IMG/VR virus record: IMGVR_UViG_3300023116_000093
Span: 1-43,612 of that record
Direction: 5' to 3' (one strand)
DNA: 43,612 nucleotides
From: a virus
Shown here: piece by piece, positions 15,764 to 42,202 of the stretch
Numbering within the stretch: position 1 is the first letter of the stretch
How the letters are laid out: the number at the start of each line of letters is the position of its first letter
The notes under the pieces: generated by a model
The model's input: only the letters and a program-made list of their open reading frames with translations
Databases searched by the model: none
What the model was told of the DNA's origin: nothing
Program-made: the position numbers and the translations under genes

Positions 15764-16387
15764 TTACTCGTTTTCCAACGGGTCTTTGAATGACTTTCTA
15801 ATTTCGTCAGCGGAAAAGTTCTCAACTTCATCAGGTGTTAGAATATATTCGTTCTTACCTGTTTTTTCCATCTCCTCTTCTTTATCTGAGAAGAAATCAG
15901 TTAACTTCTGATTGTATGGATAACTGTCCAAACTTCTTAACTGTAGTTTTTCTTCAGGAGACTTTTCTCTGTATTTTTCAACTTTGTCCTCCAAAGAGTT
16001 AATCTTATCAAAGATTTGGTCCATTTGTGAAAGTTTACTTTCTAACTCACTCAACTTATCAAACATAGATTCCATATACTCATCTTGTTTGTCTGAGATT
16101 TCGTTTTGTTTGTTTACCAAATCAGTGATTTCCAATTCTTCAGTTCCACCTTCAGATGAAACTTCAACGTCAGATTCTACATCACCCGAATCGTCTACCT
16201 TCTCAACATCAGGGTCAGAATCAACATCAACAGGTTCTGCAATTTCTTCAGCACCTGTTTCAGCATCTAACTCAGCGTCTGCATCAGGAGCCAATGTTTC
16301 AGGGTCCTCTGCGTCTTGCTCAGTGATATACTTGTTGATTGAGTTATATCTTTTTAACTCTTCTAAAATTTTATTATCTACTGACAT
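15764..16387 (-). CDS. Acidic coiled-coil protein, unknown
   Basis: A 207-residue, strongly acidic protein. Residues 1-25 form a short charged helix (NKILEELKRYNSINKYITE). About 26-85 is Asp/Glu/Val-rich low complexity. About 88-150 is a predicted coiled coil with heptad-like Leu/Ile spacing (MESMFDKLSELESKLSQMDQ). A more ordered C-terminal region follows. There are no catalytic motifs. It is last in the tail block, before a terminator, so a scaffold, assembly or virion role is possible. The YITE|Q site after the first helix resembles sites cut by T4-type prohead proteases, which hints at a capsid-targeted protein; this is speculative. Confidence 0.8.
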   Translation of the reverse strand: MSVDNKILEELKRYNSINKYITEQDAEDPETLAPDADAELDAETGAEEIAEPVDVDSDPDVEKVDDSGDVESDVEVSSEGGTEELEITDLVNKQNEISDKQDEYMESMFDKLSELESKLSQMDQIFDKINSLEDKVEKYREKSPEEKLQLRSLDSYPYNQKLTDFFSDKEEEMEKTGKNEYILTPDEVENFSADEIRKSFKDPLENE

Positions 16388-31542: not shown

Positions 31543-32391
31543 TTAAACTTCTATTTTTTCTCCTCCTTTAGTTAAATAAGTTTTAACTGGTTTATCTTCA
31601 TATTCCTTATCTAAGAAATCTTTAATCTTATCAATATTTCTAGGGTCATCATCAGAAAAACCAATCATAGGAACAAAATTGTTCTTTACGTCGTTTTTGA
31701 AGAATGCTCTTTTTCCAATCCTACCCGCCAACTCTTTTACATATAAAATGAACTCACGTAGTGCCTTGATTTTTCCTTCTTCAGGATTGGCAGCACTTCC
31801 TTCACCATAAGTTACTGGATGGAATTTTAATAAGTCCAAATATACCTCAATTAATTCTTCATCACTCATATCTTCTTCATCGACAAATTGACGGTATTTT
31901 CTAAGGTTTTTAACCAGTTCATTCTTACTAATTCCTTTATGGTCCGTAACAATCATGTTGTAAACCGCGTCCCTCAAAACAGAAGGGGTATGTCCTCTTG
32001 CCGTAATAATTGAAAAAATTGAACCTCCGTTGATTGCCTCAACAAAATCGTCCCATGAAGGACCAGTCTCAGCCAACATAGCATCAACAATAAATTGTGA
32101 ATCACCTTTAACGGTAAAGTTTCTATAAGGGTCCTCAGCATATCCGACAATCATCTCACCGTTGTATTCGAAAGGTTCTTGACCAATCATCCCACGGTAA
32201 TCTGCAAAGTCCTCAGTAGACATCCCAACCTCTTTACCGTCCTCCGTCTGAACAACGATTTTAGTTGGCATCTCCAAGATATTGTCGTCCCAATCAAAAG
32301 CATAATACTTTAAATCTGGGTGACCCTCTTCGTCAAAACCTTCCTTGAGTTCTTTTTCCTCAATATACTCTTTTAAGATTTTACGAATCAT
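31543..32391 (-). CDS. HAD-superfamily hydrolase-like protein
   Basis: A 282-residue protein with haloacid dehalogenase motifs: motif I YYAFDWDDNIL (D33, D35), motif II SIITARGH (T130), a possible motif III lysine (K207 in EEGKIKAL), and motif IV GFSDDDPRNID (D247-D249). This predicts a Mg-dependent phosphatase or phosphotransferase. The DWDDN variant of motif I and the roughly 70-residue insertion after it set it apart from polynucleotide kinase phosphatases. The substrate is unknown. The N-terminus MIRKILKEYIEEKELKEG is a charged amphipathic helix before the catalytic domain. The gene is inserted between sheath and tube genes and is coupled by an ATGA overlap to the 47-residue gene upstream. 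Confidence 0.85.
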   Translation of the reverse strand: MIRKILKEYIEEKELKEGFDEEGHPDLKYYAFDWDDNILEMPTKIVVQTEDGKEVGMSTEDFADYRGMIGQEPFEYNGEMIVGYAEDPYRNFTVKGDSQFIVDAMLAETGPSWDDFVEAINGGSIFSIITARGHTPSVLRDAVYNMIVTDHKGISKNELVKNLRKYRQFVDEEDMSDEELIEVYLDLLKFHPVTYGEGSAANPEEGKIKALREFILYVKELAGRIGKRAFFKNDVKNNFVPMIGFSDDDPRNIDKIKDFLDKEYEDKPVKTYLTKGGEKIEV

Positions 32392-37691: not shown

Positions 37692-39446
37692 ATGGAAGAA
37701 AATAAAGTTATAGAAAGTATCCCTGAAATTAAGGCAACTCGTATATTGGAAAATTACGAGGGATACAACAATTACATACTATCCATCAAAAATAAGATGG
37801 AAACAAAAAAACACTTTAAGATGACTCGTGCTCAGGCCGATTACATCAATGACTTCCATCAGGTGGTTCCAAAAGTTGCGAGAAAGTGGGTAATGTTGGA
37901 TGACTACTTCGGTCAAAAAATGATGGAAGAAAAACTTCTAACTAAAAAACCAACTCAAATCTATGTTGAAAAAATCTTAGTTGAGAAAGATAAATCATTT
38001 CACATCTATGGTAAGTTATTTGAAAAACAAAAGTTATACGACTTTTGGTTACCTAAAGCTGCGGTTATTGTAAACAAAGAAAGAAAAGTTGAGATTGATT
38101 ATTCTAAGTATTCTCACCGACCACCACTATCACATCAAAAAGAATCCATTGAAAAGTTGGTGGGTAATGACAAATACATTTTAGCCGATGATATGGGATT
38201 GGGAAAAACCACCTCAACAGTGATTGCATCATTGGAGAATGGTTCCAAAAAAGTCTTAATCATCTGTCCTGCATCATTAAAGATTAACTGGGAAAGGGAG
38301 ATTAAAAATTATACCGATAAGACCACAAGTATTGTTGAAGGTAAAAAGTGGGAACCTGCCGAATACACAATCATCAACTATGATATTCTTAAAAACTTCC
38401 ACGAACCCAAAAAACCAAAAGAATCGGATGTCTTAAATTATGGGTTTGATTTGGTGATTATCGATGAGGCACATTATATTCAGAACAAACAAGCTCAACG
38501 AACAAAGATTGTAAATGACCTCTGTAAAAAAGTTGGGAGGGTTTGGTTGTTGACGGGAACCCCAATGACTTCACGACCAATCAACTACTATAATCTTTTA
38601 GAGTTGGTAGACTCACCTGTCGCCTACAATTGGATGGCATATGCAATCCGTTATTGTGAAGGTTACCAATTCAATGTTGGAAACCGAAAAGTTTGGAACG
38701 TCAATGGAGCATCCAACCTAACGGAATTAAGAGACCGAACAAAAAGCCACGTCCTCAGAAGATTGAAAGAGGACATCTTGGACTTACCTGAAAAAATATT
38801 AACCCCCGTTTACCTTCGTCTGAAGTCAAAGCAATACGAAGCATTAATGGGTGAATATTTTGAATGGTTTGAACAATCTGAGGAGTCATCCTCATTAACC
38901 GTGCAATTCTCAAAACTGATGAAGGTCCGACAGGTCATCGCAGAAGAAAAGGTTAGAGACACCATTGAGATTACACAAAATATAATCGACCAAGGAAAAA
39001 AAGTTATTATTTTCACGAATTTCACTGATACATTAAATAAAATTAAAGACCACTTCGGAAAATCTGCCGTTGCTTTAGACGGAAAAATGAGCAAACCAGC
39101 AAGACAACGTTCTGTTGATGAGTTTCAAGAAAACGAAAAGGTTATGGTCTTTGTTGGTAACCTTAAAGCCGCAGGTGTGGGTATTACCCTTACCGCAGCA
39201 GAAGCAGTTATTATGAATGACTTATCATTCGTTCCTTCTGACCACTCACAAGCCGAAGACCGTGCATACCGTTACGGTCAAAAGTCAAATGTATCCGTTT
39301 TTTATCCAATATTTGAAAACACCATTGAAGGAGTTATCTACGATATTTTGTCACAAAAGAAGAATGTTTTTGAGACAGTTATGGGGGATAATGAAAATAA
39401 GGGGGATGTTTTAGAACAAATATTGAATACAATCTCAAGAAGATAG
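37692..39446 (+). CDS. SNF2-family DNA helicase/translocase
   Basis: A 584-residue SF2 ATPase of the SNF2 type. Motif I is ADDMGLGKTT (165-174), motif Ia is near ICPASLKINW (191-200), motif II is DEAH (258-261) and motif III is LTGTP (about 287-291). In the second lobe, motif IV is VIIFTNFTDT, motif V is the AAGVGITLTAA region, and motif VI is AEDRAYRYGQ. The N-terminal about 140 residues are unlike known helicase domains. Such proteins remodel or reanneal DNA (SMARCAL1/HepA-like) and in T4-type phages act in recombination and fork repair, parallel to UvsW. It is first in a plus-strand group of four genes. Confidence 0.93.
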   Translation: MEENKVIESIPEIKATRILENYEGYNNYILSIKNKMETKKHFKMTRAQADYINDFHQVVPKVARKWVMLDDYFGQKMMEEKLLTKKPTQIYVEKILVEKDKSFHIYGKLFEKQKLYDFWLPKAAVIVNKERKVEIDYSKYSHRPPLSHQKESIEKLVGNDKYILADDMGLGKTTSTVIASLENGSKKVLIICPASLKINWEREIKNYTDKTTSIVEGKKWEPAEYTIINYDILKNFHEPKKPKESDVLNYGFDLVIIDEAHYIQNKQAQRTKIVNDLCKKVGRVWLLTGTPMTSRPINYYNLLELVDSPVAYNWMAYAIRYCEGYQFNVGNRKVWNVNGASNLTELRDRTKSHVLRRLKEDILDLPEKILTPVYLRLKSKQYEALMGEYFEWFEQSEESSSLTVQFSKLMKVRQVIAEEKVRDTIEITQNIIDQGKKVIIFTNFTDTLNKIKDHFGKSAVALDGKMSKPARQRSVDEFQENEKVMVFVGNLKAAGVGITLTAAEAVIMNDLSFVPSDHSQAEDRAYRYGQKSNVSVFYPIFENTIEGVIYDILSQKKNVFETVMGDNENKGDVLEQILNTISRR

Positions 39447-39490: not shown

Positions 39491-41053
39491 ATGGAGTTCA
39501 AAAAACAAAAGGCTCGCATTCAGGAGATTGAGAAAATATTGAAATCACAGCCAACTCAAAAACCTGATAATCAACAGGATACAATCCACGAGCAAAAACA
39601 AACTGAAATGAAAGAAATTAAGGTAGTAAAACTTCCTTATTCTTATTCTGCCCTTGAGCGTTTCATCGATGCTGAGACGATGAAAACTCATTATAATCAA
39701 CACTACAAAGGTTACGTTAAAAAACTTAATAGTGCCTTAGATAGAATTAAGGATAAAGAAATGGACCTTGAAAAAATCATTAAAGGTATTTCAAGGTATA
39801 ATAGAACAATACGAAACAACGCAGGAGGGGCTTACAACCATCAACTGTTTTGGAATATGTTATCACCAAAAAAACAAAGACCTACAGGTCCTGTTTATGA
39901 TAAGATAGTAAAGAAATTTGGAAGTTATGACAACTTCAAAAAAGAATTTGCTAAAAAATCAAGAGGTCAATTCGGTTCAGGATGGGCTTGGTTAGTATTA
40001 ACCAAATCAGGAGACCTTAAGGTGATGACCACATCAAATCAAGACAATCCACTTATGGGGGTTATCAAAGATGGTGGACATCCACTCTTAGGTTTAGACC
40101 TATGGGAACACGCATATTACCTCAAATACAAAAGTAAAAGAGACGAATACATCAACAACTTCTTCTCAGTAATCAATTGGAGTTATGTTAATCGTTTGTT
40201 TGATGAAAAGAACAAAACAAAAATTAATGAGTCTCGAGTTGCAAAAGAAATTATTACTGAAGGAGCATCTGCCGGATGTTCTCCAAAACAGGTAAATGCC
40301 TACAGAATGATATTCAACCGAAACCCTCAGATTAAAAAGAAATTCATGTATGCAATCATGGATATTCTAAAAGAAGTTTATTCTGAGTTTTGGTATGATA
40401 AAAACGAATATGCTGAAGGACAAATGTCAGGTGTTTATGATTTTGAACAACCAGGTCGTTCGGTAATCAATAAGTTGAATACCAACTACTCAGCATTCTG
40501 TATTTTATCTAATGATATCAGCATGGCGTTGAAACATTATGGGCAACCATCTTTAAACTTTATCGGTCAATCTAATACCCAACAGTTAAAAGAATTGTCA
40601 AGAATGTTAAAATTCATGATTGAATACCGTTATAGAATATTCAACCCTGAGTCTGCAACTTTCAAAGAAATTATGGCGAGTTTAGATAAATCAAACCGTT
40701 TTGGTGATACCAGAGAAATCAAAGCAGTATCAGACATGAAAAAAATATTTAACACCAAAAAAGTTTTCAAAGTAGGAGAGCTCGGTGGTAAAGATGATAT
40801 GTTAGGTGGTGTAGATGCAACTGTTGAAGAAAATGGACAAACAAAGACCATTCAAATCAAACCATTTAATAATTGGGAAGAGAAAGACGACCGAATTATT
40901 GTCTTTGGAACAGGTAATGTAAAACCTTATTCTACGGATTATATGGCTTTCCAAACTGACAAATACGGAACATTTGTATTCAATGTAGATGGAATGGAAA
41001 TTATAGACGGAAGATTTACCTTCCCAAAGGAAGGGTGGGTTAATCCACAATAA
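39491..41053 (+). CDS. Fe/Mn superoxide dismutase fused to a nuclease-like C-terminal domain
   Basis: A 520-residue protein. Residues about 47-240 are a complete Fe/Mn superoxide dismutase converting superoxide to H2O2 and O2. Metal ligands are H67 (KTHYNQHY), H117 (NNAGGAYNHQLFW), D203 and H207 (DLWEHAYY). Gly113 and Gln184 (SNQDNPL) match the Mn-type rather than Fe-type pattern. Residues 1-46 are a Gln/Lys-rich extension. A linker, NESRVAKEIITEGASAG (about 246-262), leads to a C-terminal domain whose end (GGVDATVEENGQTKTIQIKP, D442, Q455, K457) recalls the GxD...(E/Q)xK pattern of PD-(D/E)XK nucleases. IITE|G in the linker resembles a T4-type prohead protease site. SOD is certain; the nuclease reading is tentative. 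No signal peptide is present. Confidence 0.93.
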   Translation: MEFKKQKARIQEIEKILKSQPTQKPDNQQDTIHEQKQTEMKEIKVVKLPYSYSALERFIDAETMKTHYNQHYKGYVKKLNSALDRIKDKEMDLEKIIKGISRYNRTIRNNAGGAYNHQLFWNMLSPKKQRPTGPVYDKIVKKFGSYDNFKKEFAKKSRGQFGSGWAWLVLTKSGDLKVMTTSNQDNPLMGVIKDGGHPLLGLDLWEHAYYLKYKSKRDEYINNFFSVINWSYVNRLFDEKNKTKINESRVAKEIITEGASAGCSPKQVNAYRMIFNRNPQIKKKFMYAIMDILKEVYSEFWYDKNEYAEGQMSGVYDFEQPGRSVINKLNTNYSAFCILSNDISMALKHYGQPSLNFIGQSNTQQLKELSRMLKFMIEYRYRIFNPESATFKEIMASLDKSNRFGDTREIKAVSDMKKIFNTKKVFKVGELGGKDDMLGGVDATVEENGQTKTIQIKPFNNWEEKDDRIIVFGTGNVKPYSTDYMAFQTDKYGTFVFNVDGMEIIDGRFTFPKEGWVNPQ

Positions 41054-41089: not shown

Positions 41090-42202
41090 ATGTCGATAAT
41101 TAGAGAACCACAAAGAAGTAAGTTATATACGAGAATTCGTCACCTATTGGGTGCACCGTTAAGAGGTGTTGAGATAGAAGATGAGATGATGGATTCTTTG
41201 TTGGAATTATCAGTTGAAGATTACTCACAATATGTAAACGATTGGTTAATTGAGTCTCAATGGACATCTTTATACGGTATGAACCAAGATACTCAATCTG
41301 TTGCGAGAGCACTTATTACTCGTTCTTTGGATTGGGAAACTCAATACACTTACGCATATTCTAAAATTGTTGGTCTTCAGGCTGGTGGTGATTCAGTTTT
41401 GAAAAAAGACTATATCGACCTTAAACCTAACCAACAGATTTATGAAATTCCTGCAGGTCGTGAACTTAACGAATTGTTATGGTTTACACGTGCAGAGTTA
41501 GATGCCGCTTTCTTTGACCCATTTATGGGTGGTTTCGGAGGTTTTGGAGGTATTGGTCTTGGTGGTGGTGCCGGATTCTCTCAAATGGGTGGACAAGGGA
41601 ACTACTTTGTGACACCAGCATTTGACATCCTTTTAAGAATGCAAGACATCAACATCAAAAGAAGAATTATTGGTGGTGAACTTACATATAGAGTAACTGC
41701 ATTACCTGAGGGTAAGAAAGCTATTCACCTTTACAACGTACCAGGTGGTAAATTTGATTTCGGTAACATAACAAACAACCAATACCGTGTTTGGTATTGG
41801 TATTATGAAACTGATGACCGTGAATCTTGTTTGGCTGAAAATCCTGATATTGTTCGTCTACCTTCTGACGTAAACTTAGAAAACCTAAGATGGGACGAAT
41901 TAAACTCACCTGCACAGACTTGGGTTCGTAGATGGTTCACTGCTTACGTTAAAGAGTCTTTAGGTAGAGTTAGAGGTAAATTTAGTGGTAACTTAAAAAC
42001 ACCAGACTCTGAACTACAATTAGAATATGATTCATTGTTAAGTGAAGCGAAGGATGAAAAATCTAAACTCGAAGAAGAATTGAAATTGAGGTTAGAGAGA
42101 CTACGTCCTGATAAAATGATGGAAGTTAAAGCTAGCCAAGCCGAAAGTTTGAATAAATCTTTACAATATAGAGCACTTCCACGACAAATCTACATCATAT
42201 AA
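41090..42202 (+). CDS. Neck protein, T4 gp13-like
   Basis: A 370-residue protein (T4 gp13 is 309). The N-terminus RIRHLLGAPLRGVEIEDEMM followed by LLELSVEDYSQYVNDWLIES has the LGxPxxxVE(L/I)xxExx helical pattern of gp13-type head completion proteins. A Gly/Phe-rich loop (GGFGGFGGIGLGGGAG, about 147-165) interrupts the core. The C-terminal about 70 residues form a coiled coil with Glu/Lys repeats (SKLEEELKLRLERLRPD). In T4, gp13 binds the portal and is followed by gp14. No portal gene is in the window. Neck assignment is moderate. Confidence 0.72.
   Translation: MSIIREPQRSKLYTRIRHLLGAPLRGVEIEDEMMDSLLELSVEDYSQYVNDWLIESQWTSLYGMNQDTQSVARALITRSLDWETQYTYAYSKIVGLQAGGDSVLKKDYIDLKPNQQIYEIPAGRELNELLWFTRAELDAAFFDPFMGGFGGFGGIGLGGGAGFSQMGGQGNYFVTPAFDILLRMQDINIKRRIIGGELTYRVTALPEGKKAIHLYNVPGGKFDFGNITNNQYRVWYWYYETDDRESCLAENPDIVRLPSDVNLENLRWDELNSPAQTWVRRWFTAYVKESLGRVRGKFSGNLKTPDSELQLEYDSLLSEAKDEKSKLEEELKLRLERLRPDKMMEVKASQAESLNKSLQYRALPRQIYII

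Follow-up and report, generated by a model that had tools for sequence, protein, structure and literature searches.

The prohead protease gp21 of phage T4 cleaves after L/I-x-E, and the T4 internal proteins are packed into the head via short leaders that are removed at such sites (PMC9026906). T4 Alt is cleaved at ITE-6 and LTE-619 (PMC5694885). A virion-packaged superoxide dismutase (SOD) is known from PBCV-1, whose Cu/Zn-SOD (A245R) is the product of a late gene and has been linked to less superoxide during infection (PMC7019647). SODs and other oxidative-stress genes have been reported from freshwater and uncultivated aquatic phages (PMC6802176). SODs are thus not rare in uncultivated aquatic phages, contrary to what a first-pass annotation of the DNA studied here had assumed for tailed phages.

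Here we analysed a virus record of 43,612 bases (the window), in which one gene joins a Fe/Mn-SOD to a C-terminal nuclease-like domain. The product is likely to be a capsid-targeted precursor, which the prohead protease would cleave; the resulting SOD and nuclease would be packaged and probably injected. Phage SODs (PMC6802176) and gp21-processed internal proteins were known already; the two combined in one two-enzyme precursor were not found in the literature searched. With T4 IPI-III and Alt, the protein shares a leader carrying L/I-x-E, the presence of gp21 and gp23 in its relatives and, in the case of Alt, an enzyme as cargo. In contrast to them, the presumed cargo is a SOD and a nuclease, two enzymes in one precursor with putative internal cut sites, and no sequence relation was found. 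A245R is likewise a virus-encoded SOD and sets a precedent for the packaging of one in a virion (PMC7019647). However, it belongs to an unrelated SOD class and to a eukaryotic virus, and there is no polyprotein on the chlorovirus side.

The SOD-nuclease gene and its surroundings

Positions 39491-41053 of the window (plus strand) form a single unbroken ORF of 520 amino acids, from ATG to stop (Table 1). The gene lies between a helicase and a neck gene, as the first-pass annotation had placed it: a SNF2/UvsW-like helicase is encoded on the 5' side (37692-39446) and a gp13-like neck protein on the 3' side (41090-42202; phrog_211, 1.4e-10). T4-type tail and replication genes are also found on the window.

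The motif TATTTAT precedes the gene. In the window, it occurred 11 times in 1,350 upstream positions, compared with 10 times in 85,874 other positions, and the enrichment was strong 10-40 nt upstream of starts. Among 35 relatives, 32 had it 12-32 nt ahead of the ATG. Structural genes, among them those for the sheath, tube and neck, are also preceded by it, as are UvsX and DnaB; gp23 lacks it. On the coding strand, the element TATTTATA is the reverse complement of the T4 late promoter TATAAATA, which itself had 7 matches in the window against 4.2 expected, a non-significant difference. TATTTAT is probably a late-promoter element of this phage group. The earlier suggestion of a late, possibly packaged product is supported.

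Table 1 Features of the SOD-nuclease gene. Positions refer to the window; a slash marks the putative cut point.
Feature	Position	Strand	Remarks
TATTTATA element, likely late-promoter -10 of the phage group	39469..39476	+	22 nt before ATG
Propeptide at the N-terminus (residues 1-34), a helix followed by disorder	39491..39592	+	pLDDT ~31-61; ends at candidate site IHE34/Q
Mn-type Fe/Mn-SOD (residues 45-235)	39623..40195	+	Pfam PF00081, PF02777; PDB Mn-SODs
SOD metal ligand H67	39689..39691	+	invariant
SOD metal ligand H117	39839..39841	+	invariant; Gly113 four residues earlier
SOD ligands D203 and H207	40097..40111	+	invariant
Linker site 1, I245-N-E247/S	40223..40231	+	[ILV]xE in 36/36 non-redundant relatives
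Linker site 2, I255-T-E257/G, where the C-terminal protein is predicted to be released	40253..40261	+	[IL]xE in 36/36
Residues 258-400, helical first half of the mature C-terminal protein	40262..40690	+	AF2 pLDDT mostly >85
Predicted PD-(D/E)XK nuclease core, residues 401-520	40691..41050	+	VIA and Foldseek fold matches
Candidate catalytic residues E409, D442, Q455, K457	40715..40861	+	invariant in 36 sequences

The SOD half

Both halves of the Fe/Mn-SOD family were recognized by Pfam in residues 45-235 (Sod_Fe_N, 1.8e-22; Sod_Fe_C, 5.8e-38). In end-to-end alignments, the closest solved chains were bacterial SODs, mostly of the Mn type (6gsc, 5a9g, 3tjt), and the identity to bacterial enzymes was ~50%. 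The four metal ligands claimed at first pass (H67, H117, D203 and H207) were present and invariant in an alignment of 10 diverse phage SODs, as were the second-sphere residues H71, Y72, W165, W205 and E206. The claimed Gly/Gln pair was found as well, with Gly113 (four residues before ligand His117) and Gln184 forming what we take to be the Mn-type pair. With the two Pfam domains and the full set of four metal ligands in place, the SOD half is, on sequence grounds, an intact Mn-type Fe/Mn-SOD, and it would be expected to have dismutase activity. The ligands, the Gly/Gln pair and the level of identity are shared with known Fe/Mn-SODs (PF00081/PF02777), whereas the phage SOD is embedded in a precursor between protease-type sites. 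Strong purifying selection acts on the whole protein, dN/dS being ~0.01-0.08 in the SOD half and the C-terminal half alike.

The C-terminal domain and its predicted nuclease core

Sequence searches with the C-terminal domain gave nothing credible in Pfam or the PDB. The AlphaFold2 model of the domain, built from 36 relatives, had a mean pLDDT of 90.5. For residues 401-520, the top Foldseek match was I-Ssp6803I (2ost_C, E 2.5e-3), and VIA gave Z scores of 8.1 to the archaeal Hjc of A. fulgidus (2wcw) and 7.2 to I-Ssp6803I (2ost), values of 7-8 being modest. Behind these, VIA matched restriction enzymes and the DREN domain of SPARDA, and the top rows came nearly all from one superfamily.

The last ~120 residues are predicted to adopt a PD-(D/E)XK fold and may have nuclease activity. 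The model matches agree with the nuclease-like C-terminal fold proposed by the first-pass annotation, and the GGVDAT...IQIKP pattern on which it had remarked is located at residues 440-458. The nuclease-like domain of ~260 residues described there has to be narrowed down: the last ~120 residues form the predicted core, and the helical residues 258-400 do not belong to it, the fold matches to the C-terminal model barely reaching them. This helical part (~140 residues) contains the invariant or near-invariant motif GRSVINKLNTNYxxFC. Archaeal Hjc, I-Ssp6803I and DREN share the predicted core fold and the E/D/Q-x-K arrangement with the phage domain, which differs from them by the extra 140-residue helical part and shows no detectable sequence similarity to them. 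Its likeness to the archaeal Hjc family is one of fold, with no Pfam or PDB sequence match.

A domain with a PD-(D/E)XK fold might also be a DNA-binding or structural core protein instead of a nuclease, which would be compatible with packaging and would suit the modest Foldseek and VIA scores and the missing Pfam match. We consider this quite improbable, because the four candidate catalytic residues are invariant in the 36 sequences, and because the DREN nuclease domain, a QxK variant (PMC12205087) that is also among the fold matches, has D, Q and K as its catalytic residues.

Distribution of the fusion and SOD phylogeny

For the C-terminal part, each IMG/VR scan yielded some 400 confirmed relatives or more, and the 80 best were retained each time. 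Among those retained, there were at least 113 non-identical SOD-nuclease proteins, down to ~41% identity, and the order helicase, SOD-nuclease, neck was conserved in about 80 loci. The same domain pair was thus found in related phages, with intact fusions in independent IMG/VR contigs at identities down to 41-44%. The gene is therefore not an assembly chimera. An artefact joining two genes, which the first-pass annotation had raised, was ruled out by the recurrence of the same junction in many independent contigs, from ~41% identity upward. The fusion itself has hundreds of IMG/VR relatives. It does seem to be undescribed, as had been stated: no phage SOD-nuclease fusion was found in the literature searched.

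So far, the C-terminal domain has been found in phage contigs only. No match was obtained in GenBank phages by tblastn, and a pattern-based scan of one genome per bacterial or archaeal species, which distant relatives could escape, gave no confirmed relative. UniProt A0A6J5L953 (uncultured Caudovirales phage, 501 aa), annotated merely as "superoxide dismutase", shares the C-terminal fold (TM 0.90 over 252 columns) and is therefore apparently the same fusion. The fold also occurs in a 1113-aa uncultured marine phage protein in BFVD (A0A8D9CCA0, TM 0.83).

In the SOD tree, the fused SODs clustered (90/96) and adjoined free phage SODs; the deeper joins are unsure because of long branches. The SODs of two isolates, Vibrio phage 2.275.O and Wroclawvirus MIJ3, have neither a comparable targeting leader nor the NQD Gln region. 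Nine SOD matches in records labelled as Staphylococcus, Enterococcus, Listeria, Escherichia and Salmonella phages (H1-H9) seem to be host DNA from unannotated or bacterial records, and not phage SODs. In one relative (G004, L135 14700-18559), proteins with Bacteroidota-like signal peptides ending in AQ or SQ were seen, hinting at a Bacteroidota host.

Prohead-protease-type sites in the linkers

The linkers are among the lowest-confidence parts of the full-length model. In the linker preceding the SOD, [IL]xE was found in 32 of 33 non-redundant relatives. Two relatives (L084, L088) seem leaderless, their called start being an internal Met, and have EILKE/M or EILLE/M in frame upstream. The mark of gp21-processed internal head proteins, an L/I-x-E site that separates the leader from the mature protein, is thus present.

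The two sites in the linker following the SOD are ten residues apart. Across 36 relatives, site 2 had eight different middle residues, and the next residue was G in 31, S in 3, and A or D in one each. All 113 fusions had at least one [ILVM]xE in this linker; directly ahead of the nuclease, 108 had [IL]xE and the remaining five MSE. One linker (L174) is without site 2 and retained only KLNE/S. [IL]xE is a weak motif, and neighbouring families share a few conserved columns. In a control with these families, about one or two conserved [IL]xE columns were found per protein, scattered along its length, whereas both conserved columns of the SOD-nuclease fell inside one linker of ~13 residues. Because the linkers hold conserved sites of prohead-protease type, SOD and nuclease probably do not remain joined as the first-pass annotation had described them.

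Natural variants without the SOD

SOD-less relatives accounted for 16 of 80 loci in one set, with more in a larger set, and most of them retain the site ahead of the nuclease. Two (L171, L173) read SINE/MKKIEIEKLKSIISE/GKSERC: the leader site and the pre-nuclease site are kept, the SOD core is absent, and the nuclease is 93% identical to that of SOD-fused relatives. In three others (L101, L220, L280), a leader with [IL]xE is kept before the nuclease, L280 beginning with MIMKILVSQKQYNLIKE/SKDEFC. No clear targeting leader was seen in SOD-less L305, L319 and L320.

Alternatively, the protein could remain fused as a bifunctional enzyme encoded by an auxiliary metabolic gene and work inside the infected cell, its SOD shielding host or phage against oxidative stress and its nuclease degrading host DNA. 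Such a role would fit the strong purifying selection on both halves, their collinearity in most relatives and the oxidative-stress genes, SODs included, reported in freshwater phages (PMC6802176). We find it unlikely, however, given that an otherwise variable linker preserves the [I/L]xE sites and leaves only their middle residue free, that the pre-nuclease site is retained where the SOD has been lost, and that a late-promoter-like element lies upstream of the gene.

Capsid genes and leaders in related phages

Both gp21 and gp23 scored above the Pfam cut-offs in seven of eight large related records; the window is a fragment without the gp21 and gp23 region. The gp23 of relatives has HLINE/AAN near the expected end of the propeptide. 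In a 184 kb relative (G001), the motif basic-hydrophobic-hydrophobic-x-E was found in the first 28 residues of 24 of 150 ORFs (16%), compared with 3.5% of internal windows. This was the most enriched of five pattern forms tried, all of which were enriched. When the linker profile of the SOD-nuclease was run against the same relative, the best non-self match was at residue 2 of a 450-aa protein, MAIKFSNIVKTVILE/Q; with the profile alone, the N-terminal enrichment was modest. In a second group of T4-like phages, free SODs begin with MNYDKLADLILE/E and similar sequences. These N-termini look like capsid-targeting sequences, and a record of this group (G007) has gp21 and gp23.

The protein might also be packaged with the leader alone removed, the SOD-nuclease acting as one injected protein. 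N-terminal sites are present in nearly all relatives, and T4 Alt is an example of a large packaged enzyme (PMC9026906). Nevertheless, the chances of this are slim, since no other sites are as well conserved as those between the domains, which also look like the leaders at the N-termini of further proteins from these genomes.

Proposed processing and delivery

In the favoured reading of a processed precursor, the SOD-nuclease would be expressed late and enter the prohead core, where a gp21-type prohead protease would cut after [I/L]-x-E on either side of the SOD. This would release an active Mn-SOD of ~200 residues and a nuclease of 263 residues, along with the leader and a short peptide from the linker. 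SOD and nuclease would be retained in the head with the DNA and probably be ejected into the host, like T4 Alt and IPI. Once ejected, the SOD could lower superoxide near the incoming DNA; for the nuclease, host or competing DNA is our most likely guess at a target. To the fuller proposal, a single polyprotein split by the capsid protease, with SOD and nuclease packed and both injected, and with cargo gained or lost between the protease sites, we would give even chances.

If true, aquatic phages deliver a SOD and a nuclease along with their DNA, and oxidative defence would therefore be available from the first moment of infection and not only post-expression. Capsid cargo in unculturable metagenomic phages could then be recognized by a sequence signature, a folded domain that follows a leader helix and is flanked by [I/L]xE sites, and what reads as a domain fusion in metagenomes may be a precursor processed by a protease.

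Further proteins with leader-like N-termini

The 450-aa protein with the leader MAIKFSNIVKTVILE/Q (L139 2487-3839, minus strand) has C-terminal leucine-rich-repeat similarity and TATTTAT upstream, and is a candidate packaged protein. In relative G001, a basic, Lys-rich protein of 87 aa (L132 10959-11222, plus strand) starts with MRKVRITEEQLEQIVRRVIDE/KKK, its leader being RITEEQLEQIVRRVIDE/KKK, and resembles a DNA-binding internal head protein. On the window, a 282-aa protein (31543-32391, minus strand), without a Pfam or PHROG match and possibly HAD-like by eye (YYAFDWDDNI), begins with MIRKILKEYIEE/KEL, a possible capsid-targeting leader. An acidic 207-aa protein (15764-16387, minus strand) has YNSINKYITE/Q near its N-terminus and matches a virion structural protein in PHROG very weakly (E 0.0088).
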